From Acidobacteriaceae bacterium (lineage in GTDB: Bacteria; Acidobacteriota; Terriglobia; Terriglobales; Acidobacteriaceae), in contig JANXUC010000141.1 of the NCBI GenBank assembly GCA_025352065.1, forward strand, positions 1 to 56,582: 56,582 nucleotides of DNA, read 5' to 3'. Of this stretch, positions 2,479 through 19,922 are shown one piece after another (within the stretch, counting starts at the first letter, position 1; every line of letters starts with the position of its first letter). Made by a program: the position numbers and the translations under genes. A model generated the notes under the pieces. It saw nothing but the letters and a program-made list of their open reading frames with translations, did not search any database and had not been told where the DNA came from.

Positions 2479-2741
2479 TGGATATCGAAACGCAGCCGAC
2501 GGCTTCTGAAACCGCAGTCGGAGCACAACTGTCTGGTCCGAATGTAATACGGCGCGCCTGGAAGAGCCACCATACGGTGACTTTGGTGTAATCAAACTGG
2601 TCACCTAGGGGCTCAGTAACGTTGAACAATTCCTTGCGCTCTGGCAGAATTTCCTTCAGGGCAGCGGAGTTTTGGCGCATGCGGAAGCAAGAAAGATCTC
2701 AGCACTGGGAACGATAGATAGTGAAGAGAAGAGGACCACTC

Positions 2742-3557
2742 GTGACATTTATACAGCGTTACCTTGCAGTTACCTTGTGCTTGTTGATTTCGCCGGTACC
2801 CGCCGTGCTTGCTGCCCCTGCGGATACGCAGCCTGCAGGTCAGATCAACGCATTGATCCCAGCCGCTACGCTGAACGCCAAGACGGCGAAGGCCAAGGAC
2901 TTGCTGCAATGGAACGATCTGCTCAAGACACAGCACACGGGCCGTCTACGTGTCGGGCTGACGGACGGTTCCATGCTGAGCCTGGGATCGGATAGCGAAC
3001 TCAAGGTTGTGCAGCACGACACGGCCACGCAACAAACCGCACTGGAAATGAATTTTGGCAAGATCCGTAGCCAAGTGGTAAAGGTTACACAGCCTGGTGG
3101 CAAGTTTGAAGTGAAGACGCCGAATGCGGTTATCGGCGTTATCGGCACTGATTTCTACGTTGGCTACTCGAATGGTCAAACGACTGTGATCTGCTATACC
3201 GGAAAGGTTTGGGTTTTGCCGTCGGGAAACGCTAAGGTCGACAGGAAGCCAGCGGAAGCGAGTGCTGCCGAGGGAACGATTTTGGTTAGTGCCGGACAGA
3301 TGGTCGTTATTAGCGACGCGCCTCCGGTCGCGGGCTACCAGTCCGGTCCCACGCCGCGGATGGTGCAGCAGACCAGCATCGAAGCGACCGATACGCAGCC
3401 TCCTCCTGGCGTGGCGGCTCATGCGCCAGCTCATATTTTGCGCTACGTACTTCTCGGCACTGGTATTGTTGGAGCGCTAGCGGGCGCAGCTTTCGGTGCA
3501 ATTGCGGCGACCCGCAAATCAAAGCGGTGTAATCCAAAGACTGGCCAGTGCGGTTAG
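2742..3557 (+). CDS. FecR-domain exported or membrane protein
   Basis: The 271-residue product has a signal sequence (about 7-24), a FecR domain in the middle (about 60-150, with GRLRVGLTDGSMLSLGSDS and TPNAVIGVIGTDFYVG) and a hydrophobic glycine/alanine-rich segment near the C-terminus (about 235-260) followed by a basic tail. FecR domains sit in the periplasm and pass signals to partners. The C-terminal anchor suggests membrane attachment rather than secretion. The GTG at 2742 is preferred because AGAAGAGGA lies 7 nt upstream; a GTG at 2721 in the same frame has no ribosome-binding site. The gene is 91 bp upstream of a CHASE2 adenylate cyclase, a pairing seen in other bacteria. A role as its periplasmic partner is inference. 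Confidence 0.8.
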   Translation: MTFIQRYLAVTLCLLISPVPAVLAAPADTQPAGQINALIPAATLNAKTAKAKDLLQWNDLLKTQHTGRLRVGLTDGSMLSLGSDSELKVVQHDTATQQTALEMNFGKIRSQVVKVTQPGGKFEVKTPNAVIGVIGTDFYVGYSNGQTTVICYTGKVWVLPSGNAKVDRKPAEASAAEGTILVSAGQMVVISDAPPVAGYQSGPTPRMVQQTSIEATDTQPPPGVAAHAPAHILRYVLLGTGIVGALAGAAFGAIAATRKSKRCNPKTGQCG

Positions 3558-3648: not shown

Positions 3649-6009
3649 ATGACACCTCCGCAAGAGCACTGGTCACGATGGCTGGGCCGGGTTTCCACCC
3701 GACAGGTTGATCTTGCCATTGCCGTTCTGGTGACTATTGCAGGTCTTCTGCTGTTCGCGTTTGCTGGCATCGGAGGCAGCCGCCGCGCGGGCTTCCGTTT
3801 TCTTCAGAACATTGAGCAGCGCTCCCTCGATCTGCGTTTTGAGCTGCGCGGCCAGCGCCCGCACGATGATCGCGTGGTCATCGTTGGAATCGACGAGAAA
3901 ACGCTGCAAGCCACCGGTTCCTATCCACTTCCACGGAACCGCTATGCCGCGCTCGTCGACCGTTTCAGTGCGGGAGGTGCGCGTGTTGTGGCCTTCGACG
4001 CCACCTTCCCGACGCCCGAGAGTAATTCTGCCTGGCAGGCGCTCCAGACCTTGCAGCAAGGCTCAGGCCCGAATGTGCCGCTTCCGGTCAGAAAGAAGAT
4101 TCTCGAACTGAAGAGAGCCAGTGATCAGGATGCTGCTTTTGCCGAATCGTTGAAGCGTTCTGGCACCGTCGTCTTGGGACATGTGTTTCTGAATGCGGAA
4201 CGAGCAAGAGCCAACGATCCTAAGGCGGCCGAGGACTACTTCAATATTGTCTGGGCCAAAGTATTCCCGCAGGTCCTGAAAGTCAAATCGAAAGACGGGC
4301 GCGATTTCGATCTCGGCAAGGCGTGGGTGGAACATGGAGGAACGGTGGCTGCCGGGGTCGAAGCGAACATCGCGAAACTGGCGGAATCAGCGGCTTCCTA
4401 TGGGTTCATCGATATCAATCCAGACCCCGATGGCACGCTGCGACACGCGCTGCTCATTGTACGGTATCAGGACCAAGACTTCTTCCCATCCCTGGCGCTG
4501 CAATCCATTCGGGAGTACGAAAGCATCCCGGATCAAGAGATCAAGGCGTTCATCTCCGAGAACGGTTTGGAGCGGATTCAATTCGGGCGCCACCTGATTG
4601 AGCGTTGCCGTGACGGCACAGCGCTCATCAACTATGTTGGTCCTTACGGCTCGTATGCGCACTACTCCATGTCGGACGTAATCAGTGGAGCAGTTCCTGC
4701 GGGCACATTCAATGGCAAAATCGTGCTGATGGGCGCCACCGCTATCGGCATCGGCGATTTGCGCAATACGCCGTTCCAAAATGGTGGCACCCCATACATG
4801 GGCGTGGAAGTTCATGCCAACATCATCGACAACCTGCTGCACAGCGGCGAGACAGGCCGCAGCTTCCTAACGCGCGGTTTCCGCGAAGAAGCGACCGACG
4901 CTGGTTTTATCCTGCTGTTTGGCACCGTGTTCGGATTCTGGTTCAGCCGCGTCAAACCCCTGTATTCGACGCTCTCCCTGGTGGTGGCGCTGGCGGCATT
5001 TTCGTGGTTTGTGTATTTCAGCTTTGCGCACTGGGGACAGTGGCTTAGTTTCGTAATTCCCGCAGGAACGCTGGTCGCAAATTATGCCGCTATCACCAGC
5101 TTCCGCATGGTCTTTGAGGAACGCGAAAAGCGGAAGATCCGCAAGACATTTTCGCAATACCTGTCTCCTGGCGTGATCGCCCTCATCGAGAAAAACCCAC
5201 AAAAATACATTCGGCCCGGCGGAGAGACCAAGGAACTCACGGTAATGTTCAGCGACATCCGCGATTTCACCACGCTTTCGGAAGGGCTGACCGCGGACGA
5301 ACTCGTACATTTGCTCAACGAATACCTGGGTGCCATGACCGATACGCTCTTTCGCAATCTGGGGACCTTGGACAAGTACATTGGCGACGCAATCATGGCA
5401 TTCTGGGGATCGCCGTACCCGCAGGAAGATCATGCTCTGAGCGCGTGCAACTGCGCCCTTGAGATGATTCGCGTGTTAGAACAGCTCAATAAGAAATGGC
5501 AGGCGGAAGGCCGACGCCAAATTGCTATCGGAGTCGGGCTGAATACCGGGCCCGTGAACGTCGGCAACATGGGATCGAACAAACGTCTTGCTTGGACGGT
5601 GATGGGCGACAATGTGAATCTGGCGTCCCGTCTGGAAGGCCTGACGCGGCAGTACAACGTGAAGATCGTAATTGGCGAGGGAACCTGGCGGCAGGTAGAA
5701 AAAAAGTATGTGGGACGCGAACTGGACAAGATTCGCGTGAAAGGAAAGTTGCAGCCCGTCAACATTTATGAGCTGATCGATGTGGCTGCGGAGAGATCGA
5801 AATACGAAGCTCTGCTTGCGGGCTTCGACTATGCCATGCGGACTTACCGTGAGCAAAAATGGAGCGAATCTACTATCCTGTTCAGCCAACTCGCGGAGAC
5901 GTTCCCGGAAGATGGTCCGACGCAGGTTTTCCTGCGACGGGCGCGCGAATTCGCAGAAACGCCTCCCCCAGCGGGCTGGGATGGGGTGTACGTCATGAAA
6001 ACGAAATGA
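3649..6009 (+). CDS. CHASE2-domain class III adenylate cyclase
   Basis: The 786-residue protein has an N-terminal membrane segment (about 22-40), an extracytoplasmic CHASE2 sensor (about 55-400), three more membrane segments (about 418-490) and a cytoplasmic class III cyclase domain (about 530-700). The metal-binding aspartates are Asp536 in FSDIRDF and Asp580 in KYIGDAIMAFWG. Lys576 and the Thr of TVMGDNVNLASR fit ATP rather than GTP as substrate. The transition-state Asn and Arg are in the same motif. A 75-residue helical tail follows. The protein should make cAMP in response to an outside or membrane signal. The only obvious cyclic-nucleotide-binding protein in the window is the iron-sulfur protein at 14478-16655, which makes this gene a plausible regulator of that complex. 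Confidence 0.93.
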   Translation: MTPPQEHWSRWLGRVSTRQVDLAIAVLVTIAGLLLFAFAGIGGSRRAGFRFLQNIEQRSLDLRFELRGQRPHDDRVVIVGIDEKTLQATGSYPLPRNRYAALVDRFSAGGARVVAFDATFPTPESNSAWQALQTLQQGSGPNVPLPVRKKILELKRASDQDAAFAESLKRSGTVVLGHVFLNAERARANDPKAAEDYFNIVWAKVFPQVLKVKSKDGRDFDLGKAWVEHGGTVAAGVEANIAKLAESAASYGFIDINPDPDGTLRHALLIVRYQDQDFFPSLALQSIREYESIPDQEIKAFISENGLERIQFGRHLIERCRDGTALINYVGPYGSYAHYSMSDVISGAVPAGTFNGKIVLMGATAIGIGDLRNTPFQNGGTPYMGVEVHANIIDNLLHSGETGRSFLTRGFREEATDAGFILLFGTVFGFWFSRVKPLYSTLSLVVALAAFSWFVYFSFAHWGQWLSFVIPAGTLVANYAAITSFRMVFEEREKRKIRKTFSQYLSPGVIALIEKNPQKYIRPGGETKELTVMFSDIRDFTTLSEGLTADELVHLLNEYLGAMTDTLFRNLGTLDKYIGDAIMAFWGSPYPQEDHALSACNCALEMIRVLEQLNKKWQAEGRRQIAIGVGLNTGPVNVGNMGSNKRLAWTVMGDNVNLASRLEGLTRQYNVKIVIGEGTWRQVEKKYVGRELDKIRVKGKLQPVNIYELIDVAAERSKYEALLAGFDYAMRTYREQKWSESTILFSQLAETFPEDGPTQVFLRRAREFAETPPPAGWDGVYVMKTK

Positions 6010-6149
6010 TGGCCCCTTACTTTTTGAACCTGCCCGAAAGGTGTAAATGAACTGCACCCGTTAACGGATTCAAGTCCTCCCCCGCAGGTGCCTTGTATGC
6101 AGGCAATGGCTATGGTACGAAGAAGGAGTCTCTCTTTGGAAGGTGGCGA

Positions 6150-8387
6150 TTGCGGACAGGCCGACGTGTGCGTGGATGGTATCGCGGCGGCTGGCTGGTA
6201 ATTTTTGGCTTGGCGTGGTGGTTACTGTTTTTTCCAACGCGGATTGTGGCGCTGGCACCCATCTCGGTCGTAGGTCAGCAGATCGGTGAACAAGAGCGTG
6301 GCAATCCGACTATCGTTGAGCAAAGTTCGTCCCTTCGCCGGATTCCGGAACATACTCTCTCGGCTGCGGCAGTTCTTCAGGGTGTAGTTCGCGATCAGTA
6401 TGGGCGCGCCGTTCCCGGAGCCTCTCTCGAACTTGCTCTTGTTGGCGGACCAGGCTACGCCACGGGTACCGATGTCGAAGGAATTTTCCGCCTGCGTGGG
6501 ATTCGCCTCGGTCGATATGAACTCAAGATCATGTGCGAAGGCTTTCAAGCGTTGGGAATTTCGGATCTCGATTTGAACAGTCCCCACTCGTTTGCTATCG
6601 AACTCACAATGCAGTCGCTCAACGCGCCGACATGGCAAGGCAATTCCGGGTCTGGTCTGCCAGGGGCTGAACGGATGCCACCTCTAGAAATTGTCCCAGG
6701 AGAACCCTATCCGGGATTACGCAGTCCTTCCAGCGAAGCAGCGGAGCCTGCACCGGAGGAGATTCCACCCGCGTCCGCGAATTTTTCTCCTACGCCGGAT
6801 CGCTGGGATATCGCCTTGCCCGAATGGCAGCGTTATGAGAAGCAGCGAGACGTCCCTTTCGTGACGGGGCATTGGTACGATCCTTTCAATCGCAATAAGC
6901 TCAAAGGCGACTACCCGATCTTTGGGCAACGTTGGTTTTTCAATTTTACCGGCACGAGTGAAACTGGATTCGAAGGGCGCCGTTTACCGGTGCCGAGCGG
7001 ACTCGACTCGGTGAACCGGGGCGAGAGCGGCTTTTTTGGCCGCGGTGAGCAGATTTTTGCCTCCGAGAACCTGCGACTCTCCTTCGATCTGTTTCGCGGC
7101 GATACCAGTTTTCGTCCAGTGGACTTTCGCATTCGCTTCACGCCGGAAGTAAGCTTGAACTTTCTACAGGCGCGCGAGCGGGGGATCGTGAACGTTGATC
7201 CGCGTAAGGGCACGACTCGCTTCGATACGCACATCGGATTGCAGGAAGGCTTCGTCGAAGCCAAGCTGCACGATCTTGGTCCTAGCTATGACTTTGTTTC
7301 TGTCCGCGCTGGCATTCAGCAGTTCAACAGCGATTTTCGCGGCTTTCTATTCTCCGAGGAGCAGCCCGGTGTGCGTATCTTCGGCAACCTTCGCTCCAAC
7401 CGTTATGCCTACAACGCGGCCTGGTTTTATTTCCTGGAAAAGAACACCAATAGCGGTCTCAACACGTTCCAAAAACGGCAACAGCAGGTCTACTTGGCGA
7501 ACCTGTACATTCAAGACTTCCTCGCCAAGGGCTATACAGCGCAATTCAGTTTCCACTTCAACCGCGATTACGGCGGCATTCACTACGATGACAATGGCTT
7601 TCTGGTGCGACCAGCTCCTGTGGGAGGTGTGATCAACGGAAAGATTAACACGCACAACATCCATGCGTACTACCTGGGCTGGACCGGCAACGGACATATT
7701 GGCCGCATCAATGTGAGCAATGCTTTCTACCAAGCCTTGGGGCAGGATGACTTCAACGCCATCGCTGGCCGACGTGTGGACATCAACGCGCGCATGGGTG
7801 CGCTGGAACTCTCCGTGGACAAAGACTGGGTGCGGTATCGGGCGTCGGTCTTTTATGCCACGGGTGATTCCAGCAATCGCTCGGGGTCGTCCCGCAGGGA
7901 CGGCACGGCGCATGGTTTTGATTCCATCGTGGATAACACGCACTTTGCAGGCGGCGATTTCAGCTTTTGGGACAGCGAAGGCATCCGGCTGACGGGGACA
8001 GGCGTGGGGCTGGTCAGTCCGGGCAGTCTACTGCCCAGCTTACGATCCAATAAAGAAGAAGGTCAGGCGAACTTCGTGAATCCGGGACTCATGCTGTTTA
8101 ATCTCGGTGTGGATTTTATCCTCACGCCGAAGCTTCGGACGTTTGTGAACGCGAACTACTTGCGCTTTGATCGCACCGAATCGCTGGAACTGTTGTTATT
8201 CCAAAACCATATTCGACATGGAATTGGAACTGATTTCGGTGCGGGCGTGGAATACCGTCCGCCACTGAGCGAAAACATCGTGATTCGCGGCGGCGCTTCA
8301 GCGCTGGTGCCCGGCCAAGGCTTCAAAGATATCTACAACGGGCGAACGCTTCTCTCCCTCTTCGCGAATGTGAAGTTTCAATTCTGA
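6150..8387 (+). CDS. Outer-membrane beta-barrel-like protein with carboxypeptidase-regulatory domain
   Basis: The product begins with a basic N-terminus and a hydrophobic signal segment ([14 protein letters not shown]). It then has a carboxypeptidase-regulatory-like beta-sandwich ([21 protein letters not shown]), a proline-rich linker, and about 480 residues of alternating polar and hydrophobic strands with frequent aromatic ends that finish in FANVKFQF, the C-terminal aromatic typical of outer-membrane barrels. TTG at 6150 is preferred because GGAAGG lies 6 nt upstream; a TTG at 6093 is in frame but gives a long basic extension. The stop codon is 2 nt before the ATG of the multihaem cytochrome gene, so the two are probably co-translated. 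This arrangement resembles porin-cytochrome conduits, although the barrel does not resemble MtrB or a known Geobacter porin that I can name. Confidence 0.7.
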
Positions 8388-8389
8388 GT

Positions 8390-11300
8390 ATGAAGAGAAC
8401 TTTTCTCAAGACGGGTTGCACAGTCAGCGAAATTGCTTTGCTGAGCTTCATCTGGGCAAGTCCAGCTCGTCCTGCACAAGTGGAGCCCGTGCCAGAGCAG
8501 ATGCTTTTACTGCAATCCCAAGCGGATGCTGACCAAAAATCCACTGGATGCCTGACCTGCCATACTTCGACCGATAGCCCCACCATGCATACAACCGGGA
8601 CCGTAAGGTTGGGATGTATGGACTGTCACGGAGGGAATAGCGACATCCGGATCACTGCAGGCGTAGTCAGCACCTCTGCGGAATATCAGGGCGCAAAAAG
8701 CCAGGCACATCCCCAACGGCGCAAGTCGCACGGGCCAGAATCCTCCGCCAACGCTGTGCGTGCCTACACGAACTGGCTACAAGAAGACTGGGACTATGTG
8801 CGTTTTGTAAATCCAGGCGATCTTCGTGTAGCGGAGAAGACGTGCGGTTCCTCGGGATGCCATACCGCGGAAGTGCGGAAAGTCCAGACCAGCATGATGA
8901 CGCACGGCGCCATGTTGTGGGGCGCGGCTCTTTATAACAATGGGGCGTTTCCGCTGAAGTCCCCGCGTTTTGGAGAGAGTTACGGTCCCGATGGCAAACC
9001 CCAACGGCTTACGACATTCCCCGCACCCACAGCGGAGGAAATCACCAGGAAGGGAGTTCTCCCCTATCTCGATCCGCTAGAACGTTGGGAGATTTCCCAA
9101 CCAGGAAACGTTCTCCGTGTGTTCGAACGTGGAGGAACGAAGCGCCCCGAACTCGGGAATCCCGACTTGCTCGAAGACCCAGGCAAGCCTGAAATAAAAT
9201 TGAGTGAACGCGGGTTTGGAACAGGATTGCGAACCGATCCAGTCTTCCTGGGGCTACAGAAGACGCGGCTGCTGGACCCGCTTCTTTCGCTGCCTGGAAC
9301 GAACGACCAGCCTGGCGACTATCGTGCCAGCGGCTGCAGCGCGTGCCACGTGGTCTATGCTAATGACCGGTCGCCAGAGCACTCCGGACGTTACTCGGAA
9401 GCTGGCAATCTCGGTCAGAGCGCGACGAACGACCCCACAATCCCACGCAACGAGTCGGGACACCCGATTCGCCACGAGTTCACGCGTTCCATTCCGTCGA
9501 GCCAGTGCATTGTGTGCCACATTCATCCCGGCACAAATATGGTGGCAACGTATTTTGGCTACACATGGTGGGATAACGAAATGGATGGCGAACACATGTG
9601 GCCTACCGAGCAGCACAACCCCAGCGCGAAAGAGCAGAGCCAGGTGCAGGCCAAGAATCCCGAAGCGGCCGCCGCTCGCGGTCTTTGGTCCGACGAGAAG
9701 TTTCTTGAAAAAACTGGCACGCCTGAATTTAACCGCCAATTGCAACATACGCAGTTCGGTGATTTTCATAGCCACGGCTGGATCTTCCGCGCTGCCTTTA
9801 AGCATGATCGTCAGGGAAAGTTGCTCGATCAGAACGACAATGTTGTACCCTTCAACGATCCGGAAAAATTCAACAAAGCCGTGCATCTGAAGGATATTCA
9901 TCTTGAAAAAGGCATGCACTGTATCGATTGCCATTTCGAGCAGGACAGCCATGGCAACGGCAAGCTTTATGGAGAGACGCGCAACGCTATTGAGGTGGAC
10001 TGCGTCGATTGCCACGGCACGATCCAGCAGAGGGCGAAGCTGGTTACCTCAGGAACTGCCGCCCCGGTTGGCGGCACAAATTTAGCACGCCTGCAAACGC
10101 CGTGGCTGGAAAAGCGCTTTTATTGGAAAGACAACCTCCTTTATCAGCGTTCCATGCTCGAAAAGGACAAAGAGTGGGAAGTGGTTCAGGTACGGGATAC
10201 GATCACACCCGGCAGCCAGCACTACAGCGAGAAGTCGCGCCTGGCAAAGACTGTGCAGCAAGACGGACAAAGCTGGGGAAGCGCGCCGTTGGATGAATCC
10301 AAACTCGCGCACCAAAACAGCAAGATGACTTGTTATACCTGCCACTCCTCCTGGGCTCCGACCTGTTACGGCTGCCATCTTTCGATGACCGCGAACCAGA
10401 AGACGCCCATGTTGCACAACGAGGGCCTCACTACACGCAACTGGACTGCGTACAACTTTCAGGTGTTGCGCGACGATATTTACACGCTCGGAATCGACGG
10501 CACGGTCACTGGACATCGGGTCGCGCCAGTGCGATCCGCGTGTGCGGTGCAGGTGAGTTCGCAGAATAGTGACCGCGACTGGCTCTACTATCAGCAACAA
10601 ACGATTTCGGCGGAAGGCTTCAGCGGCCAGGCCTTCAGCACGTTTGTTCCACATACGGTTCGTGCGAAAGAAACCAAGGGTTGCACCGACTGCCATGTGT
10701 CTCGCAATAACGACAATAATGCTTGGATGGCGCAACTGCTTCTTGAAGGCACGAACTTCATGAATTTTATGGGTCGCTACGTCTACGTGGCAGATGGCGT
10801 CGAAGGCTTTGAAGCGGTGGCTGTAGCCGAACATGAGGAGCCTCCCGCGGTGATTGGCAGTGATTTCCAGAAAATTGCTTATCCAGACAATTTCAAAAAA
10901 CATGTGGACAATAGCGGACAATTGAAAGAAGCGCATAGGCACGCCGGAAGGGAAGTACTCGATCTGCAAGCGCGCGGCGAATACCTCTACGCGGCGATGG
11001 GAAAGGGTGGCTTCCGAATCTACGACATCGCGAATGTCGACAACAAAGACATTTCCGAGCGCATGGTTACCGCGCCGGTATCACCCTTGGGGCAGCGGTT
11101 CTACCTGCCGACAAAATATGCGACCGCCGTCGCTACGCCTACCACGCTCGGCGTTGATCCACTACGAGCGCATTTAAAGGAAAACGAAGAGCAGGCGATT
11201 CACCCGATGTACGGATTTCTCTACGTCGCCGACAAGTATGAGGGACTCATCGTTGTCGGCGACCCGAATCTCAACGCCAAAAGTCCAGGCGTTGGAACAC

Positions 11301-12139
11301 TGCTTGATGGCAATCCCGCGAATAACTTCTTGAAACGCGCCGTTACCTTCAACCCAGAAGGCAGGCTGAACGGCGCTCGGCGCATCACGATTGCGGGCAC
11401 GTACGCCTACGTTTTGTGCGACGGGGGACTGGTCGTGGTCGATCTGGCGAATCCCATCCAGCCCAAGATTACAGCGGAAATCGGAGCTCCATTTCTCCAT
11501 CAGCCGCGCGGGCTTGCCGTGCAGTTCCGCTATGCGTTCGTGGTGGATCGCGAAGGGCTGAAGGTTCTAGACGTGACCCATCTCGATAGTCCCAAGGTGG
11601 TGCAGGGTGCGCAGGTCCAATTGCCGGATGCTCGCAATATTTACGTCGCACGGACCTACGCTTACATTGCTGCCGGCAAGCAGGGACTCGTCATCATTGA
11701 CGTTGAGCGTCCTGAACATCCGGAATTGGGACAGGTGTTCAACGCGAATGGAGCCCTCAAGGATTCCAACGATGTGAAGCTTGGCATGGTGAGTTCGAGC
11801 CTGTTTGCGTATGTTGCCGACGGGGATGCGGGATTGCAGGTTGTGCAGTTGTTTTCCCCTGTTGACAATCCAGCCTTTAGCGGCTTTAGCCCTCGTCCTA
11901 CGCCAAAACTCATCGCCACCTACCGTACTCGCGGTCCAGCACTGGCGATTTCCAAAGGAATCGATCGGGACCGCGCTGTGGATGAGAGCGGAAATCAGTT
12001 GGCGGTATTTGGCCGCCGTGGCGCCCGCCCCTTCAATCGCGAAGAGATGGAACGCCTGTACCTACGCAACGGACAGATGTTTACCCTGACCGACGAGGCG
12101 CCCAACGCACCGGAGAATGACAAGTCTTCACAACGTTGA
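8390..12139 (+). CDS. Ten-haem cytochrome c fused to an LVIVD beta-propeller
   Basis: The 1249-residue protein has a weak signal sequence (about 1-29). Residues 54-770 carry nine CXXCH haem motifs (Cys54, 76, 316, 373, 511, 538, 648, 659, 765) and one CX4CH motif (CGSSGCH, Cys152). From about 785 to 1200 there are at least six LVIVD-type blades, for example [36 protein letters not shown] and [17 protein letters not shown], which should close into a propeller. LVIVD repeats are found in surface proteins. The haem wire plus propeller suggests an exported electron-transfer protein with a substrate- or partner-binding head. It lies directly behind the barrel gene and converges with the NADH-linked operon 20 bp away. 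No lipobox is seen. Confidence 0.88.
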
Positions 12140-12159
12140 GTCCAAACGGAGAAGAGGCG

Positions 12160-13524
12160 CTAAGGATTGTTGGGTCGTGTACTCCCGATGAGTTCTGGAA
12201 TCGTAAAGCGCCCCTTGGTCGGTTGAGCCTCGCTCCAGTTGTGATACCGATGGCACTCGAAGCAGCGCCCCTCAGCCGCCTCTTTCGAGGGTTCATGGTG
12301 GCACTTCTGGCAAGTCTGTACACCGGGTAAAAGAACATCCGAAGTCTCGTGGCTTTCCGGTGCGCGTGTGTGGCAGGAAGTGCAGGTCATCATGCGGTGG
12401 GCGGTGTGGTCGAAGCTGGCGTGATTGAGCCAGCGTGCAGTGATATTCGACTCCGCAATTTTCGGAAGTGAACTCGCGGAAGGCTGAATCTCGTGGCACT
12501 GCTTGCAGGTTTTGGCCCAAAGCAGCCCTTCCGCATCGGCAACGCGGAACTCGATCCAGTCTTTCTGTGAAGTTGCGATTCGCAGTGGCCGGATCCGCTC
12601 AGGGATCTCACGATTCGGCGGTTCAACCTCATGCACTTGCGAGGGATGCGTCGCAATATATTCGCTGAATCGCTTCGCAAGAAAAGCATGCACGACGTCC
12701 GGCTTGTCGTGAGGAACCTGTTCGTTGCCAAACCGCTTGTCGAACTGCAAGGTGTGGCAGCCCGCGCAATGGTTGGCGAATTCCGGAGGAGCTATCAAAG
12801 CTCGGTATGAGGCTAGCCGAAGAAAAGGCTTCTGCCCAGATGGATCTTTGCCAGCCGCCTTCGTCCCAGAATAGGGCCACGCCTTATTCGTGTCTATCGT
12901 TGCAACCTTTACGCGATGGCAGTCGTCGCACTGTAATTGCACGCGCGCGTTGTTCGGACCCACCAGGCCCGCCTGCATGTGAAGGTAGTGATTCAGACGA
13001 ATCCGGCCCGCGTCCGTCGCCCCAGGGGCCAGCGCGGAGAATTCTGGATGCTGCGCAAAGCTAGAAATAGAAGTCGCGAAATGTGGGTGGCCCTCCCGCG
13101 TCTGCAGATTGCTATGACACTGCGTGCATGCGGCATCCGCCGTCGCTTTTAGGCGTAACGCGCCGTTATGCTCCACATGACACGAGCCGCACGTGGGAGT
13201 GGATGTCTGGTTCGCATGGTGCGCCGGCGCATCGTGGCACGTAAGACAAGCTTGATCGCTGGCGTGTTCGAAGAGCGCTCCCGCTTTTTGCGTATGGCAC
13301 AGGCTGCACTGCTGCGTGAATACGGCATGCGCTTGCGCCAAGGGGCCACTGGAATAGGTTTTCTTGCCGCCTTCCACCCTCTGCACCGCAAACCAGAGCA
13401 AAGCAACCACCGGAACTACAACGGACAGCCAAAATCGCCAACTCCGCAATGCATGCGGGCGCGTGAAGTATTGCAGGTCAATTCGTCGGGCGAGTTGTTT
13501 GGTGGTCCGCGCGCGTCGCAACAT
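12160..13524 (-). CDS. Membrane-anchored ten-haem cytochrome c (cytochrome c3/c7-like)
   Basis: The 454-residue product has a basic N-terminus, a single membrane segment (about 31-47) that would hold it in the inner membrane, and a periplasmic part with ten CXXCH motifs: CSLCH, CLTCH, CGSCH, CTQCH, CDDCH, CAGCH, CKQCH, CTSCH, CQKCH and CFECH. Many extra histidines fit bis-His ligation. It is the last gene of a four-gene operon and starts 30 bp after the b-type membrane protein, so it is the natural periplasmic exit for electrons leaving that complex. It converges with the decahaem-LVIVD gene. Confidence 0.9.
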   Translation of the reverse strand: MLRRARTTKQLARRIDLQYFTRPHALRSWRFWLSVVVPVVALLWFAVQRVEGGKKTYSSGPLAQAHAVFTQQCSLCHTQKAGALFEHASDQACLTCHDAPAHHANQTSTPTCGSCHVEHNGALRLKATADAACTQCHSNLQTREGHPHFATSISSFAQHPEFSALAPGATDAGRIRLNHYLHMQAGLVGPNNARVQLQCDDCHRVKVATIDTNKAWPYSGTKAAGKDPSGQKPFLRLASYRALIAPPEFANHCAGCHTLQFDKRFGNEQVPHDKPDVVHAFLAKRFSEYIATHPSQVHEVEPPNREIPERIRPLRIATSQKDWIEFRVADAEGLLWAKTCKQCHEIQPSASSLPKIAESNITARWLNHASFDHTAHRMMTCTSCHTRAPESHETSDVLLPGVQTCQKCHHEPSKEAAEGRCFECHRYHNWSEAQPTKGRFTIPELIGSTRPNNP

Positions 13525-13554
13525 GTTGGTTGAAAAACGTGTTCTAAGAACTGT

Positions 13555-14475
13555 CTAAAACTTCAAAGCCACCACCGCATGCCAGGCTCCCAAAAGCAGC
13601 AGCGCGTACGACAGCGGAACGTGGACCAGAAGCCAGCCGTGAAGAACCTTGTGCAACTGGCTCTGTTGGTCAAGCTGCCGCTTCTCTTCGCAGACGTTTT
13701 CCAGATCGTCGATGTTCGGATGCAGAGTAGGAGGGAGCAGTACACGTACCTGCTGAAACATAGCGCGCGCCTGCGCCGGGTTGCCCAGCCGGCTCGCGCG
13801 GGTTCCCGCCCTGTCAAGGTAGGGTTGTATTTCATTTTCCAGAAACTGGCGCAGTTCATTGCTCGCCTGATCGCCAATTTGCAACCCGAAAAGGATCGTC
13901 AGATTTGCCGTGACTCCCGCGCCTGCGGCGGCTGCCCGCTGACGTTCGCTGGAGCGCGAGACTTCGCCTTCAAGAGCGCCACAGGTCTCGTCCACGAGTT
14001 GTCGAGCCTCGGTTGCCAGTTGGACACGAACCCGGTCAATCTGTTCGTAGATCGTCTCCATCGGAAGTTGCGCAGTGTGAATTCTAGGAATGAAATGTTG
14101 TAGCGCCGCCCCCAGCAGTCCGCTGATAAATACAAAAATAAAGAGCCACATGAGCGTGCGCGTCAGCGGGCCGCCAAAGTGAAATCCGCCGTGGAAAAGG
14201 ATCAGCGGGAAGCTGAGAAATCCGAACCAGAGATGGCCGCGCATCCACCAAGAGGCCCGTCCTACACGCCACACAGGGAATTTTTTGCGCAAGCCCAGCA
14301 CTCCCACAAACAGCATGAACGCAAACCCAACGCTTCCGTAGACAAGTCCTAGCGAGCTGCTGCCCTTCGGTCCTTGCGGAGCGTGCAGGCTGTACGGGAC
14401 GTAGACGGACGTTGCCAGCGCCAGCCCGAGTGCGCAGCCGCCAAACCATTTGCGATGGGTCGCGTCGATGAGCAC
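13555..14475 (-). CDS. b-type cytochrome-like integral membrane protein
   Basis: The 306-residue product has about five membrane segments (near 11-28, 43-61, 80-100, 107-126 and 280-304) and a long soluble helical loop (about 140-270). Histidines inside or near the segments (His81, His95, His99, His127, His279, His285, His299) could ligate one or two b-haems, much as in ferric-reductase-like or cytochrome b561-like proteins. It lies between the iron-sulfur protein gene (end 14478) and the decahaem cytochrome gene. This position argues that it carries electrons across the membrane. No exact family is recognised, and haem binding is inferred. Confidence 0.7.
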   Translation of the reverse strand: MLIDATHRKWFGGCALGLALATSVYVPYSLHAPQGPKGSSSLGLVYGSVGFAFMLFVGVLGLRKKFPVWRVGRASWWMRGHLWFGFLSFPLILFHGGFHFGGPLTRTLMWLFIFVFISGLLGAALQHFIPRIHTAQLPMETIYEQIDRVRVQLATEARQLVDETCGALEGEVSRSSERQRAAAAGAGVTANLTILFGLQIGDQASNELRQFLENEIQPYLDRAGTRASRLGNPAQARAMFQQVRVLLPPTLHPNIDDLENVCEEKRQLDQQSQLHKVLHGWLLVHVPLSYALLLLGAWHAVVALKF

Positions 14476-14477
14476 AG

Positions 14478-16655
14478 TTACCTCTTCGGAGGATTCGACT
14501 TCAGGGGATTTGACTGTTTCAGCACTCCCGCAAAAAATTCCGGAGGATTTACGCGATGTGCCGCATCATGCGGGCAGGCATAGACGCAACTGGGTTCCTC
14601 ATGGTCGTGACACAAATCGCACGAAGTTGCTTTTACGCGCGTGCTGGCGATCTTGCGTCCTGGCATTACGGGGTCGTCGAGTTCCACTGGGAAAGGATGC
14701 AGATTGATATTGCCGTAAGGGCAATTGCTGGCGCAAAGGCCACAACCGATGCACCAGTCTTCAATGATGACCTCCAGCGAGTTCCGTCGCCGGATCGAGC
14801 CCACCGGGCAGCCGACCATGCACAAGGGATCTCGGCATTGGCGGCAGGAAGTGGCCACCAGATATTTGTCGAACCGCACGCCCTCGCGCACCAGACGGCT
14901 GACGCCGTCGTGAGCGTCCGCACAAGCGCGCACGCATTGGTCGCATCGAGTGCAACGGTCGAGGTCGAGCACGAGAAGACTCTGAGCTTCCATCAGCCCA
15001 TTGGCCAGGAACTGATCGATGGGAACGTTCTGGACCTGGGTCGCGCGGAGGCGGTTCGCGTCGAGACGTTCGTGCGCAATGGTTTCCAGGCTATGACGTA
15101 CTTCAGGGAAGCGGTCGAGCATCAAGCGGAAATCCTCGCCGGCGATGCGCACCACCTCTACGTGGTCGAGGGCTGTGCAGGTCGCAGTACGTGGGCTGCC
15201 CGTAAGCAACGCGATCTCGCCAAAATAGCCGCCACGAGCCAGATAGGCGAGTACCAGATCTCCCCCGGGGCGCTCCTCGGAAACCTTCACAAAGCCGATG
15301 CGCACCAGATAAAAACTATCTGCCACTTCACCTTGGCGGCAGATGACCTGTCCAGGATTGAAACGAACCAACTCCACTCGGTCGCGCAGATGACCAATAA
15401 AATCCGGCGTGAGCGTGGCAAACACTGGAACGCCGCGCAGGTGCGAGTCCAAAGCGCGCTGGCGATAGTTGCGTTCCAATTGGGCTCGGAATGTTTTGTT
15501 GCGCTGTAGGATGTCGAGCACGTTGCGCAGCATCTCTAGCATTACGCAGTCAGTTTGAGCGCGTACCGTTGCTGAGCGCGGGTAGTAGCTCATGCAGGTC
15601 ATTTCGCCGAACAAGTCGCCGGGATTGAGTTGCGCGATCGGATTGTCGTAAGGGAGATCCACGGAGGCGTCGATCGGGATGAAAGGTCGGGCGGATTCTT
15701 CGCTGCGGGCATGCTCATCGCGCGGAGCCAACATGCTCTTCAGTCGACTGAAGAAGCCGTGGCTACTGCCTTCCGTCTTGACGTGAGCGATGGGACTGGA
15801 GAGAAAAACTTCCGCCGTGCCCTCGAGTATATAAAATGCGGTGGAGCCGAATTCTCCCTCGCGGCAAATGACTTCACCCGCGCGAAAGCGGCGCTTCACA
15901 ACTGCTTTCTGATTCAACTCAAGAAAGGTTCCCGATACATTCTCGAAGATCGGAAGGTGGAGCAATTCTGCGGGATCGAGGACTTCGCCCCGGCCCAGTT
16001 CCGTGCCAACGACGCGCTTTGTTGTGAGTGCGCCGGTTGGGCAGGAGACCATGCATTCTCCGCACGACACACAGGAAGACTCGCCCATGGGCAGATTGTT
16101 ATCGAACGATATGCCAGCCTGATAGCCCTTGCCGCGCCGCGCCAAAACCCAGTTATCGCGGATATCGTCGCAGCCCCGAATGCAGCGGTCGCACAGGATA
16201 CAAGCTTCATGATCCACGGCGATGACGGCGGAAGAGTCATCTTTACCACGAGGTGCCGCGCGTTGAGGGAAACGCGATTGCTCAATCCCAGCGGCGGCGG
16301 CAAGTTGTTCCAATTCACAATCGCCCGAATGCTGCTGTCTCGCGCAAGGCGACGGATGCTCGGACATCAACAACTCGACCAGAGTATGCCTGGCCGCGAG
16401 AACCGGTTCCGTGCTGGTTTTGACGGTCATACCCGCTTCGGCTTGCCTAATGCAAGAGGCGGCATAGACGCGCTGGCCAATATCCACCACGCATACGCGA
16501 CACACGCCCACCGGATTTTCGTTCTGCTGGTGGCAAAGCGTTGGAATTGGAATGCCGTTGAGGCGGGCAGCATCAAAAATCGTGGTCCCAGCGGGGACGG
16601 AAACGGGAGTGCCATCAATTGTCAGCTGAATTGACGCGGTAGCATTCGAACTCAT
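14478..16655 (-). CDS. Iron-sulfur electron-transfer protein with two cyclic-nucleotide-binding domains
   Basis: The 725-residue protein has an unusual domain order. A NuoG/HoxU-like [2Fe-2S] domain comes first (Cys41, 52, 55, 68). A His100/Cys104/Cys113 motif follows, in which the middle Cys of the usual NuoG pattern is Gln. Two [4Fe-4S] motifs (CILCDRCIRGC at 152, CVSCGECMVSCP at 195) come next, then cNMP domain 1 (about 235-395, with a 50-residue insert), cNMP domain 2 (about 410-535), and a ferredoxin domain with further clusters (Cys568, 604, 635 and 679 motifs). Both phosphate-binding cassettes look intact (FGEMTCMSYYPRSAT, FGEIALLTGSPRTAT). The ATG overlaps the NuoEF-like stop as ATGA. 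No export signal is seen, so it should be cytoplasmic. It probably passes electrons from the NADH module to the membrane subunit under cAMP control. Confidence 0.88.
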   Translation of the reverse strand: MSSNATASIQLTIDGTPVSVPAGTTIFDAARLNGIPIPTLCHQQNENPVGVCRVCVVDIGQRVYAASCIRQAEAGMTVKTSTEPVLAARHTLVELLMSEHPSPCARQQHSGDCELEQLAAAAGIEQSRFPQRAAPRGKDDSSAVIAVDHEACILCDRCIRGCDDIRDNWVLARRGKGYQAGISFDNNLPMGESSCVSCGECMVSCPTGALTTKRVVGTELGRGEVLDPAELLHLPIFENVSGTFLELNQKAVVKRRFRAGEVICREGEFGSTAFYILEGTAEVFLSSPIAHVKTEGSSHGFFSRLKSMLAPRDEHARSEESARPFIPIDASVDLPYDNPIAQLNPGDLFGEMTCMSYYPRSATVRAQTDCVMLEMLRNVLDILQRNKTFRAQLERNYRQRALDSHLRGVPVFATLTPDFIGHLRDRVELVRFNPGQVICRQGEVADSFYLVRIGFVKVSEERPGGDLVLAYLARGGYFGEIALLTGSPRTATCTALDHVEVVRIAGEDFRLMLDRFPEVRHSLETIAHERLDANRLRATQVQNVPIDQFLANGLMEAQSLLVLDLDRCTRCDQCVRACADAHDGVSRLVREGVRFDKYLVATSCRQCRDPLCMVGCPVGSIRRRNSLEVIIEDWCIGCGLCASNCPYGNINLHPFPVELDDPVMPGRKIASTRVKATSCDLCHDHEEPSCVYACPHDAAHRVNPPEFFAGVLKQSNPLKSNPPKR

Positions 16656-18382
16656 GCTGTCCCCCGTTGCTGTAAGCAAACGCCCGCCGGACAGCGCCGG
16701 TGTACGATGTGCTCGTCCACCACGTCCCGAAAATGCTTCAGCACGGATGCAATCGGCGCAGGGGCGATCTGGCCCAGCCCGCAGATTGACGTCAACCGCA
16801 TTGCGTTCGAGAGTTCATCCAGCAAGACCAAGTCGCCCTGTGACGCTAACCCCTGCGTCCAGCCCGTGAGCATTTCAACCATCTTCTGGGAACCTACGCG
16901 GCAGGGAACGCATTTTCCGCAGGACTCGTTGCGATAGAAGCGCACGGCATTCAGCGCCATATCCAACATACAGCGGCCCTCGGCGCAGACGATGATAGCG
17001 CCTGATCCAACCATGGAACCGGCTGCGGCCAGGGCGTTCCAGTCCAACGGGAGGTCCGCCATGGAAGCGGGCAGGTATCCTGACGAAGGTCCGGACGGTG
17101 CGAATGCGAGCAGTGCGCGATTTCCCAGAACACCACCGGCGTATTTCTGAATTAGCTCGGAATACTTCGTGCCCATGGGTACTTCGAAGACGCCGGGCCG
17201 ATTCACGTCGCCGCTAATTCCGACAAACTTCATTCCAGTAGCGCCATTCATTCCCTGTGCCTTGAACCACTCGGTGCCGCGGGCCAGGATCACGGTGGCA
17301 AAGGCAAACGTTTCCACGTTGTTGATGACGGTAGGCTGGTTCCACAAACCGTTGATCCCGGGAAAGGGAGGTTTGTTGCGAGGTTCGGAGCGCTTGCCTT
17401 CCATCGCCTCCAGCAGAGCGCTCTCTTCGCCGCAAATGTAGCCACCGGGGCTAACGAAAATTTCAAGGTCGAACGTCAGGTCGCTGCCGAGGATTTGTGA
17501 ACCCAGCAACCCCGCGCGGTAGCAACGGTCAATTTCCTCTTGTAGGACATCCCGCGGCGTTTCATACTCGTGGCGGATGTAGAGGAAACCTTGCCGCGCG
17601 CCCGTTACCAGTCCGGCGAGGATCATTCCTTCAATGACGAGATACGGCACCGCTTCCATGATGAAGCGGTCTTTGATGGTGCCAGGTTCGCTTTCGTCGG
17701 CGTTGCAGACGATGTATTTCTGGGGTGGAGCCTTGCTTGAAACAGACTTCGGTGAAAGAGACGCACTGCGGACCAGTTCCCACTTATTGCCAGTTGGGAA
17801 TCCGGCGCCACCCATGCCACGCAGCCCGCTGGCTTTGAGCGCGGCTAAGACGCCTTGCCAGTCGCGAGTTTCCACAAAGTTGCGTACGACGGAGTAATTG
17901 GGAGAACCGCTGTACGGATCTGACGCAACCGGCGTCCGAACCCGATCACGGCGTTCTGGGGGCAGTTGTCCGCTGGAAAGCGCTCCGCGCACAAGCGAAG
18001 TAGCAAGGCCCACGTCTGCGTCGCCGTAAATCTGATCGTTGATTGCAAGGGCGGGGGCTTGATCGCAACGGCCCAGACAGGAGACATCGCAAATCGAAAC
18101 TTCATCCGGGCTGGCGCCACGAAAAGCCTTTTCCACGCCAGCCTTGAGCTCCGAGCCGCCTCGCAGATGACAACTCATGTCCGCACAAATCCGAATTTCA
18201 GCGCGAGCTGGCGGAGTTAGATGAAAATGCGGATAAAAACTCGCAACCGCGTGGATTTGGCTGAGCGGTGCATCGATCTTTGTGGCCAGCGACTGCAGCT
18301 GTTCGCCGGACAGATAGCCGAACTGCCGCTGGATCGCTCTCAGTTCCTCGAACAATTCAACTCCGCCTTCGCAGCACGGCAA
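16652..18382 (-). CDS. NuoE-NuoF fusion, NADH-binding flavoprotein of a redox complex
   Basis: Residues 10-140 are a thioredoxin-like NuoE [2Fe-2S] domain (Cys66, Cys71, Cys98, Cys102). Residues 160-480 are NuoF, with the FMN motif GMGGAGFPTGNKW at 189-201, YIVCNADESEPGT, and the NADH region GGYICGEESALLEAMEGKR. An SLBB-like part follows, then the [4Fe-4S] motif SCGKCVPCRVGS (Cys488, 491, 494) with Cys534. The arrangement resembles HoxF of bidirectional hydrogenases and NAD-linked formate dehydrogenases, but no hydrogenase or formate dehydrogenase catalytic subunit is encoded nearby. The start is uncertain: the annotated TTG has no clear ribosome-binding site, and a TTG at codon 10 follows GGAG by 5 nt. 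It is the first gene of the minus-strand operon. Confidence 0.92.
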   Translation of the reverse strand: MPCCEGGVELFEELRAIQRQFGYLSGEQLQSLATKIDAPLSQIHAVASFYPHFHLTPPARAEIRICADMSCHLRGGSELKAGVEKAFRGASPDEVSICDVSCLGRCDQAPALAINDQIYGDADVGLATSLVRGALSSGQLPPERRDRVRTPVASDPYSGSPNYSVVRNFVETRDWQGVLAALKASGLRGMGGAGFPTGNKWELVRSASLSPKSVSSKAPPQKYIVCNADESEPGTIKDRFIMEAVPYLVIEGMILAGLVTGARQGFLYIRHEYETPRDVLQEEIDRCYRAGLLGSQILGSDLTFDLEIFVSPGGYICGEESALLEAMEGKRSEPRNKPPFPGINGLWNQPTVINNVETFAFATVILARGTEWFKAQGMNGATGMKFVGISGDVNRPGVFEVPMGTKYSELIQKYAGGVLGNRALLAFAPSGPSSGYLPASMADLPLDWNALAAAGSMVGSGAIIVCAEGRCMLDMALNAVRFYRNESCGKCVPCRVGSQKMVEMLTGWTQGLASQGDLVLLDELSNAMRLTSICGLGQIAPAPIASVLKHFRDVVDEHIVHRRCPAGVCLQQRGTA

Positions 18383-18644
18383 GACTCGACTTCAGGCTGC
18401 GATAGATGTTTTCAGGAATCTTACCGCGAGGGACGCGGTGAAGTAATGGCGAGATTGGGGCGCAGCCAGTGCCTCAATCCTTATTGCTTTCGCCGATTAG
18501 AAACAGTATAAGCAAGGCGAAGCTCATCGCCTGATTGTAGCCGCTGAATCGCAGGAAGAACGAGGCGAAATTATCGCAGTCAAAGCGACAAGACGAGGCC
18601 CCACAGAGCGTTTTATTCTGTGGCTGGCGATTTGCTGCGCGGCC

Positions 18645-19922
18645 GTGCCATCTGCCGCGCAGGATGTCCGCGTTGGCAAATACAATGGGCCGGGCGGATG
18701 CGCTTCCAGCAGTTGCCACGGCAGTATTCAACCGAAACAAATCACCCGAGTCTCACAAAATGAATACAGCATCTGGGTTGGCCAGGACAAACACGCGCGC
18801 GCATTTCAAGTTCTGTCGAATCCTGTATCCCTGCGCATCGCAAAAATCTTAAAGCTTGGGCGTCCCGATCAGGAACCGAAGTGTCTGGCTTGCCATGCGC
18901 TCTCTGTCCCCGCTGCTGAACGTGCGGAGTCCTTTGAACTGAACGATGGCGTGAGTTGCGAAAGTTGTCATGGCCCTGCTTCTGGATGGCTTGGCCCGCA
19001 TACGGTGAAAGACTGGCCGCACGAGCGCTCTGTTGCTGAGTTGGGAATGATCGATTTGCGCGACGTGGCGGTCCGTAGTCATATTTGTCTTCATTGCCAC
19101 CTTGGGACGGTGGAGAAATTCGTTGATCACCAGATGATCGCAGCAGGCCATCCTGATCTCACCTTCGAGCTGAATTTGTTTAGCGCGGTCATGCCGCGAC
19201 ACTGGAAGGATTCCAAAGAAGTAGGGTATTCCGGAACGAAGGAGTGGGCCGTGGGTCAGAGCATGCAGTTACGCGACAGTCTAGCCCGACTCGCTCGCCG
19301 CGCTCGCAGTTCTACCTGGCCGGAATATGCCGAATACGATTGCTTTGCCTGTCACCACAGCTTGACCAAGCCAGAAGAAAGCTGGCGTCTGACTTCCGAC
19401 AGCTATTACGCTGGCCGCAAAGCTGGGGCGCCTGCCTGGAATGCGTCGCGTTATATCGCATTTCGATATGCAGCCAAAGAAGCTGATGCCGCAACGGCGG
19501 CTAAACTTGAATCTGAAATCTCAGCCTTGGCGAGTCTGATGGGCCAACTGAACGGCGACAAGGAACAAATTGCGGTAACAGCAGAACGAGCCGAGGAGTT
19601 GTCCGGTACGCTGGCCCACGAACTCAACAGCCGCTCCTACGATCAGGTCTTTACGTTGCGGGTCATGCGTGGCATTGCGGGAGATGCACGCGCCATTTCC
19701 GAGCAGGGGCAGCGTGCCGCGGAACAGGCCGCCATGACGCTCGACTCGCTATTTGTCGCTTACAAACAAAACGGAAGCGTGCCGAATGACACGGAACTGC
19801 GTGCTGCGATCAACCAACTCTTTCAACAGCTCGATAGTCCTTCCGCCTACAGTGCCCCGCGCTTTGCTGCGCAGATGCAGAAAGTTAGCGCGCTGCTCGC
19901 GCAAGAAACCGCTAAGCCATGA
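18645..19922 (+). CDS. Exported multihaem cytochrome c (c554-like)
   Basis: The mature part carries four CXXCH motifs (CLACH, CESCH, CLHCH, CFACH) and one CX4CH motif (CASSSCH) in the first 250 residues, followed by a helical C-terminal part. This layout fits cytochrome c554-like proteins. The first usual start, GTG at 18645, falls inside what looks like a signal peptide. The open frame continues upstream and encodes [20 protein letters not shown] before it, yet no ATG, GTG or TTG exists there before the stop at 18498. An ATT at 18570, preceded by GAGG, could serve. The gene diverges from the NADH-linked operon and overlaps the glucosidase start by 4 nt. Confidence 0.82.

Follow-up and report, generated by a model that had tools for sequence, protein, structure and literature searches.

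A possible cyclic-nucleotide-regulated conduit from NADH to the cell envelope in Acidobacteriaceae and relatives

By which route could electrons pass from cytoplasmic NADH to the surface of an Acidobacteriaceae cell, and what would hold such a flow in check? The question is raised by ten genes lying between positions 871 and 19922 of contig JANXUC010000141.1 (assembly GCA_025352065.1, from an Acidobacteriaceae bacterium), whose 56,582 nucleotides, read on the forward strand, form the whole stretch of DNA analysed here, "the window". At its centre is a four-gene operon encoding an NADH dehydrogenase module, an iron-sulfur (Fe-S) protein with two domains binding cyclic nucleoside monophosphates (cNMP), a membrane cytochrome b and an anchored decahaem cytochrome; beside it lie genes for an outer-membrane barrel, a decahaem cytochrome with LVIVD repeats and a class III cyclase. 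The gene set is not a chance grouping, as all four operon genes were found in each of 44 loci with full flanks and three genes of the set match exactly in presence and absence over 100 genomes. From the sequences we propose an NADH-fed export of electrons across the envelope under the control of a cyclic nucleotide, a reading which we consider evenly balanced between right and wrong. A first-pass annotation of the window had listed the cyclase, the barrel, the LVIVD decahaem, the operon and a c554-like cytochrome, and open reading frame (ORF) reading and Pfam confirmed every one of these genes in its place.

The operon and the neighbouring cytochromes

The operon runs on the minus strand in the order NuoEF, Fe-S/cNMP protein, membrane cytochrome b and decahaem cytochrome, with an overlap of 28 bp between the first two genes and junctions of 2 bp and then 30 bp between the following ones. 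Its first gene (16652–18382) encodes a fusion of NuoE and NuoF, by motifs and Pfam an NADH dehydrogenase module with flavin mononucleotide, [2Fe-2S] and [4Fe-4S] sites. The protein matches NADH-binding subunits of the HydB/complex I type, HydB of 7q4v being the best solved match; its NuoF score of 430 lies under the equivalog cut-off of 558.65, so that we regard it as a homologue and not as a typical NuoF. The Fe-S/cNMP protein (14478–16679) starts with a domain for one [2Fe-2S] and two [4Fe-4S] clusters resembling HydA, HoxU and the N-terminal part of NuoG, its closest solved match being HydA1 of 7q4v, from NADH-linked [FeFe] hydrogenases. The C-terminal two thirds are made up, by Pfam, of the two cNMP-binding domains and of Fer4 ferredoxin for four [4Fe-4S] clusters. 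Each of the 24 cysteines of the six [4Fe-4S] clusters is conserved in 70–73 of 73 aligned Fe-S/cNMP sequences.

By profile, the NADH module of complex I (NuoE, NuoF and the N-terminal part of NuoG) is present. No quinone or proton-pump subunit of complex I was recognised by eye among ORFs of at least 100 residues in positions 1–23000 and of at least 250 residues beyond, Pfam being run on the ten listed genes only, and a fragment of complex I was rejected because no further complex I genes were recognised beside the set. As for a hydrogenase catalytic part (H-cluster or NiFe), HydA profiles reach only the N-terminal Fe-S part and ferredoxin stretches of the Fe-S/cNMP protein, far under their cut-off. 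The protein also departs from the CRP/FNR architecture, with no helix-turn-helix family among its Pfam matches.

The membrane protein encoded next (13555–14475) is DUF4405-like, with a score under the cut-off of that family, and carries four conserved histidines (His81, 95, 285 and 299) in two pairs of spacing 14, which we take to be the pattern of a di-haem cytochrome b; against solved structures its profile gave only weak, chance-like matches (best E 0.36). The last gene of the operon (12160–13524) encodes a membrane-anchored decahaem cytochrome with 10 CXXCH motifs and 10 further histidines invariant in 21 sequences, which would offer a candidate distal ligand for each haem. Diverging from NuoEF on the plus strand is the c554-like pentahaem cytochrome (18645–19922), with four CXXCH motifs and one CX4CH. 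A signal-like sequence is found in frame at 18560–18645, upstream of the first ATG, GTG or TTG of this ORF, perhaps a sign of a rare start codon or of an error in the assembly.

Four further genes lie on the plus strand, convergent to the operon: a FecR-domain protein (2721–3557), a CHASE2 sensor joined to a class III cyclase (3649–6009), the outer-membrane beta-barrel (6093–8387), with an N-terminal CarboxypepD_reg domain and a C-terminal Phe, and, only 2 bp further on, the LVIVD cytochrome (8390–12139). The latter has a signal-like N-terminus, C-terminal LVIVD repeats and ten haem motifs, nine of them CXXCH and one a CX4CH that is retained in the relatives printed. To the left of FecR, on the minus strand, is an HbpS-like gene (871–2604, PF03928), a member of the set that had been missed in the first-pass annotation; its product has a signal- or lipobox-like N-terminus and two repeats by eye, and haem delivery, sensing or protection of cytochromes are possible roles.

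Inheritance of the gene set

Among 100 related genomes, the Fe-S/cNMP protein was found over its full length in 10, one copy (G041) being split over two contigs. Both the LVIVD cytochrome and the HbpS-like protein are present in exactly the same 10 genomes, the HbpS-like protein on another contig in G053 and G041. An absence of LVIVD from G053 was considered and rejected, as the gene is found about 41 kb off, still on the same contig. The barrel occurs in nine of these ten genomes and was not found in any of the remaining 90. G041 is the exception among the ten: its contig begins about 200 bases before LVIVD, at the place where the barrel would be expected, and no barrel was found elsewhere in the genome.

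A second set comprised the best 80 of 148 loci retrieved with the peptides FGEMTCM or IP[TV]LCHQQ, and in 44 of them the match was flanked by 9.5 kb to either side; this second set overlaps the genome set in L058/G044, L060/G048, L112/G043 and L127/G012. NuoEF, Fe-S/cNMP protein, di-haem b and decahaem are all present in the 44 full-flank loci, and L132 has the four genes in a differing order. Within 10 kb of these 44, the neighbours found were c554 (40 loci), LVIVD (29), barrel (27), HbpS (22), cyclase (16), GH63 (12), TrkA (6) and FecR (5); the gene maps are longest-ORF picks and miss some genes found by tblastn. When 20 of the 38 loci without a nearby LVIVD gene were tested, 17 of the genomes had LVIVD elsewhere and three had not. 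Two of these three, the genomes of L120 and L125, gave no LVIVD match at E 1e-30. At L120 (2087–3493) and L125, a 15-haem cytochrome and other cytochrome genes lie by the operon, the 15-haem protein of L120 being MtrC/F-like by Pfam. Altogether, inheritance of the conduit genes as a unit is supported; the Poisson and 1/C(100,10) values ignore kinship.

The spread of the set is patchy: of 396 genomes sampled from the phylum, five have the long Fe-S protein and five a version without the HydA-like part. The 80 loci come mostly from metagenome-assembled genomes (MAGs) of Acidobacteriota, together with the isolate Granulicella aggregans M8UP14 and individual MAGs bearing such labels as Rokubacteria, Methylomirabilota and Gemmatales. 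Four loci of 62–64% identity (L117, L119, L121 and L123, labelled Rhodanobacteraceae, Methylomirabilota, Rokubacteria and Actinobacteria) may represent horizontal transfer or binning errors.

Distant relatives show which parts may be exchanged. Beside five homologues without the HydA-like part (L144–L148), the decahaem is found in all five, b in four, LVIVD in three, and barrel and c554 in two each; NuoEF was not detected beside them, the sequence of L145 beginning 475 bases before the gene. Flavoprotein-like genes adjoin the still more distant sets (L150, L153 and L155), and in L155, the sole one scanned with Pfam, FHA proteins were identified. Here a flavoprotein with FHA domains (L155:2920–6398) and a separate FHA protein accompany degenerate cNMP pockets, and control may have been switched from cyclic nucleotide to phosphorylation. 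On plasmid pMSHV of Sphingobium herbicidovorans MH, the only Sphingobium sequence read gene by gene, a Pyr_redox flavoprotein domain stands in place of NuoEF/HoxU and is fused to two cNMP domains and a ferredoxin with four [4Fe-4S] clusters; b and decahaem follow, and c554, HbpS-like, barrel and LVIVD (46–47% identity) are near. The NAD(P)H input thus varies, and the cNMP domains stay between it and the ferredoxin of the output side. Homologues of the Fe-S protein occur in 12 Sphingobium plasmid records, and those of LVIVD in 12 of Sphingobium and one of Sphingopyxis.

Cyclic-nucleotide pockets and linked cyclases

The first-pass annotation had described both cyclic-nucleotide pockets of the Fe-S protein as intact, and as far as sequence can tell this holds, the canonical phosphate-cassette Glu and Arg being present in both (FGEMTCMSYYPRSAT and FGEIALLTGSPRTAT). 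In the alignment of 73 sequences the pocket Arg is conserved in 72 for the first domain (CNB1) and in 68 for the second (CNB2); row L151 of A2 is in the wrong frame. Because the loci were retrieved by peptide, the constancy of the CNB1 Gly-Glu among them owes something to the selection; the search peptides do not reach the CNB1 Arg or any part of CNB2. In nine sequences not selected by pattern, the Arg is found in CNB1 of all nine and in CNB2 of eight, and the pMSHV protein has Glu and Arg in both pockets. CNB2 also matches the model of the mycobacterial cAMP-gated acetyltransferase Pat (72 bits), a protein which similarly joins in one chain a cNMP domain and the enzyme it controls, and differs in not being a redox protein.

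The window cyclase has the catalytic residues of class III enzymes (two metal Asp, base-binding Lys and Thr, Asn and Arg) at D536, K576, D580, T650, N657 and R661, and in each of the 46 cyclases compared (some of them duplicates) the corresponding positions hold D, K, D, T or S, N and R. Lys with Thr/Ser at the base-binding positions is the combination of class IIIb adenylate cyclases. With 26 Pfam matches over 10 genomes, class III cyclases are scarce; 16 of the 44 loci have one within 10 kb, against about 0.56 expected at the measured density, with kinship not corrected. The flanks could be read in nine genomes. A class III cyclase lies at most 10 kb from the Fe-S gene in seven of these, five of which (G000, G027, G012, G043 and G077) possess no other; in G053 and G028 the stretches read contain none. 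The linked cyclases belong to at least three lineages: a CHASE2 type of 786 residues, another of about 640 residues, and an FHA-GAF-cyclase. The last was seen by Pfam beside the operon at L079:3004–4629, with a close relative at L085:3035–4645. Cyclase-linked loci fall into several separate clades of the Fe-S tree (41 of 45 rows, four without an Fe-S ORF in the cluster being left out), a tree that does not separate gains from losses; the cyclase tree holds 40 of the 46, truncated, duplicate or misjoined sequences being left out. The differing cyclases and gene orders point to more than one recruitment of a cyclase.

That the cyclase lies beside the operon merely through a shared chromosomal background was rejected: among 17 stretches around cyclases that were not seen close to the operon (12 from operon-free genomes and five from G028, G041, G048 and G053, the operon contig of G041 measuring 7.4 kb), none has TrkA, one has GH63 and nine have FecR, seven of these in the 12. 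FecR goes with the cyclase rather than with the conduit, and their pairing in genomes free of the operon indicates that the cyclase is a recruited neighbour and not a subunit. The window cyclase has a match at E 1e-60 in eight of the ten operon genomes and none in the other two.

The proposed path, its alternatives and its place among known systems

In the path that we propose, NuoEF would oxidise cytoplasmic NADH, and the electrons would pass through the HydA/HoxU-like Fe-S clusters, across the linker formed by the two cNMP domains, to the four [4Fe-4S] clusters, and then to the di-haem cytochrome b and the anchored periplasmic decahaem. The outer-membrane module (LVIVD decahaem, AlgE-like barrel and HbpS-like protein), assisted by the c554-like protein in the role of an accessory carrier, would pass them to an acceptor at the surface or outside. 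A cyclic nucleotide, often supplied by the nearby class III cyclase, would fill the two pockets and control the passage from input to output at the hinge, which is the boldest step. The outward direction would be favoured by both the redox drop and the membrane potential; as an unpumped outward flow would drain NADH and membrane potential, an open wire would short-circuit respiration and a gate would be needed. Perhaps the two cNMP domains act as a ligand-operated switch on a quinone-independent current from NADH to the surface, within a family whose NAD(P)H inputs are interchangeable and which extends over Acidobacteriota, sphingomonads and perhaps further phyla; we find this fuller version possible, with doubt prevailing.

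Several observations weigh against a conduit of this kind. In the NuoG-like part, the His-Cys3 (N5-type) cluster is without its middle Cys, in the window as in all of the aligned sequences (0 of 73). The CNB2 Arg is lost in five of the 73 and also in the relative G044, and L133 (whose gene map shows two adjoining NuoEF ORFs) has His in place of the Arg of both pockets. The distant homologues L149, L150, L153 and L155 have Gln for the CNB1 Arg and have lost that of CNB2, with b- and decahaem-type genes retained. The position after the pocket Arg is mostly Ser or Thr, with which either cAMP or cGMP could be the ligand. Each of the 10 genomes has 5–16 cNMP-domain matches, the Fe-S protein included, so that a nearby cyclase could serve other proteins. 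Moreover, 28 of the 44 loci are without a cyclase within 10 kb, the window cyclase has matches at E ≤ 1e-60 in 17 of the 90 genomes lacking the operon, and no cyclase is annotated in 27 kb around the pMSHV set. The model of the LVIVD cytochrome failed (predicted local distance difference test, pLDDT, 36) and was not used, and that of the barrel is AlgE-like and of only moderate confidence (pLDDT 69). Where the first-pass annotation had joined operon, barrel and cyclase in one system, the operon holds together throughout and the barrel is constant (nine of ten genomes; 27 of 44 loci within 10 kb), whereas the cyclase is often absent: it is linked to the conduit, in several arrangements, without being an obligatory member. 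Of the regular lack of cyclase and barrel in homologous operons, which the first-pass annotation had itself named as speaking against its view, the half that concerns the cyclase is therefore observed.

Part of this evidence is shared with a rival in which the same wire leads from NADH to the envelope, the cNMP domains are structural or serve dimerisation, and the cyclase acts on expression through CRP-type regulators. The Arg losses in the four distant homologues indicate that cNMP domains can persist without canonical pockets, even where, as in L149, LVIVD and barrel are still carried (in two separate frames, a fusion of them having been rejected). The number of cNMP-domain matches per genome favours this rival as well, as does the presence of the family-2B encapsulin shell model among the profile hits of CNB2; encapsulin domains of this kind are not known to bind cNMP. 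It is opposed by the Glu and Arg retained in both pockets of most of the 73 sequences and by the three or more cyclase lineages beside the operon, and we regard it as rather unlikely.

The outer end of the path invites another explanation, that of a reductase in the periplasm or at the surface which acts on a dissolved substrate (an oxyanion, metalloid or nitrogen oxide), with LVIVD as the enzyme and the AlgE-like barrel as a porin for substrate or product. In the model of the barrel, an N-terminal beta-rich domain is followed by about 19 long strands; among solved folds AlgE comes closest to it (Z 25.2, root-mean-square deviation 3.0 over 351 residues), and by structure matches the barrel also resembles Occ-type substrate porins, in agreement with such a role. 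An MtrB-type entry is absent among the barrel matches listed, which carries no evidential weight. The LVIVD cytochrome is weakly similar to ExtM, ExtN and ExtO (75.1, 37.7 and 37.9 bits against curated cut-offs of 800, 200 and 200), while its match to the nitrite reductase NrfA is a trace and not significant (E 0.33); profile and family searches gave it no strong known relative and no catalytic family above cut-off, which speaks against an enzyme. We judge the reductase unlikely. As the barrel models as an AlgE-like porin, electron passage through it, or a haem wire inside it, would be conjectural. Of the NADH-to-surface path in the first-pass annotation, a coherent composition from NADH to the envelope, inherited as a unit, was borne out, the crossing through the barrel being only putative. 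The reverse process, uptake of outside electrons fed inward to NAD+, is highly improbable: the components would be reversible in principle, but a donor below about −320 mV would be needed, working against the membrane potential, and none of the genes of the set was recognised as encoding a subunit that pumps ions.

Returning to the proposed export path, no tested family covers the whole set, which appears to be neither complex I, nor a hydrogenase diaphorase, nor an Ext operon, and may best be likened to a porin-cytochrome system. It shares NuoE, NuoF and the HydA/HoxU-like domain with its [2Fe-2S] and two [4Fe-4S] clusters with the HydABC/HoxEFU diaphorase and the N-module of complex I, but is without a hydrogenase or quinone module, has cNMP domains and a ferredoxin with four [4Fe-4S] clusters fused to it, and has incomplete N5-type ligands. 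In the MtrCAB, OmbB-OmaB-OmcB and ExtABCD systems of Shewanella and Geobacter, multihaem cytochromes and an outer-membrane barrel are encoded together (PMC12307469, PMC7399161). The adjoining barrel and multihaem cytochrome genes of the window, which co-occur across genomes, are alike in this. Extracellular electron transfer in Geobacter starts at the menaquinone pool, with menaquinol oxidised via CbcL/ImcH (PMC12307469), whereas the source of electrons here would be NADH and the barrel is AlgE-like in its model. The selenite/tellurite Ext cluster of Geobacter shows a weak similarity to part of the LVIVD cytochrome, to which the comparison applies; relative to the curated cut-offs, the scores reach about one tenth for ExtM and one fifth for ExtN and ExtO. 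The first-pass annotation knew of no described complex of this composition, and the literature searched, which leaves most subscription journals outside, likewise holds no description of the set.

Second-messenger control of electron transfer in Geobacter or Shewanella is known only at the level of gene expression. Since isolates carry the set (Granulicella aggregans M8UP14 and Sphingobium herbicidovorans MH), it is open to experimental testing. If the proposed path is true, it would add to extracellular electron transfer a quinone-independent route from NADH to outer-membrane cytochromes, would give an example of a second messenger acting directly on an electron path, and may hint at how soil Acidobacteriota shed excess reducing power.

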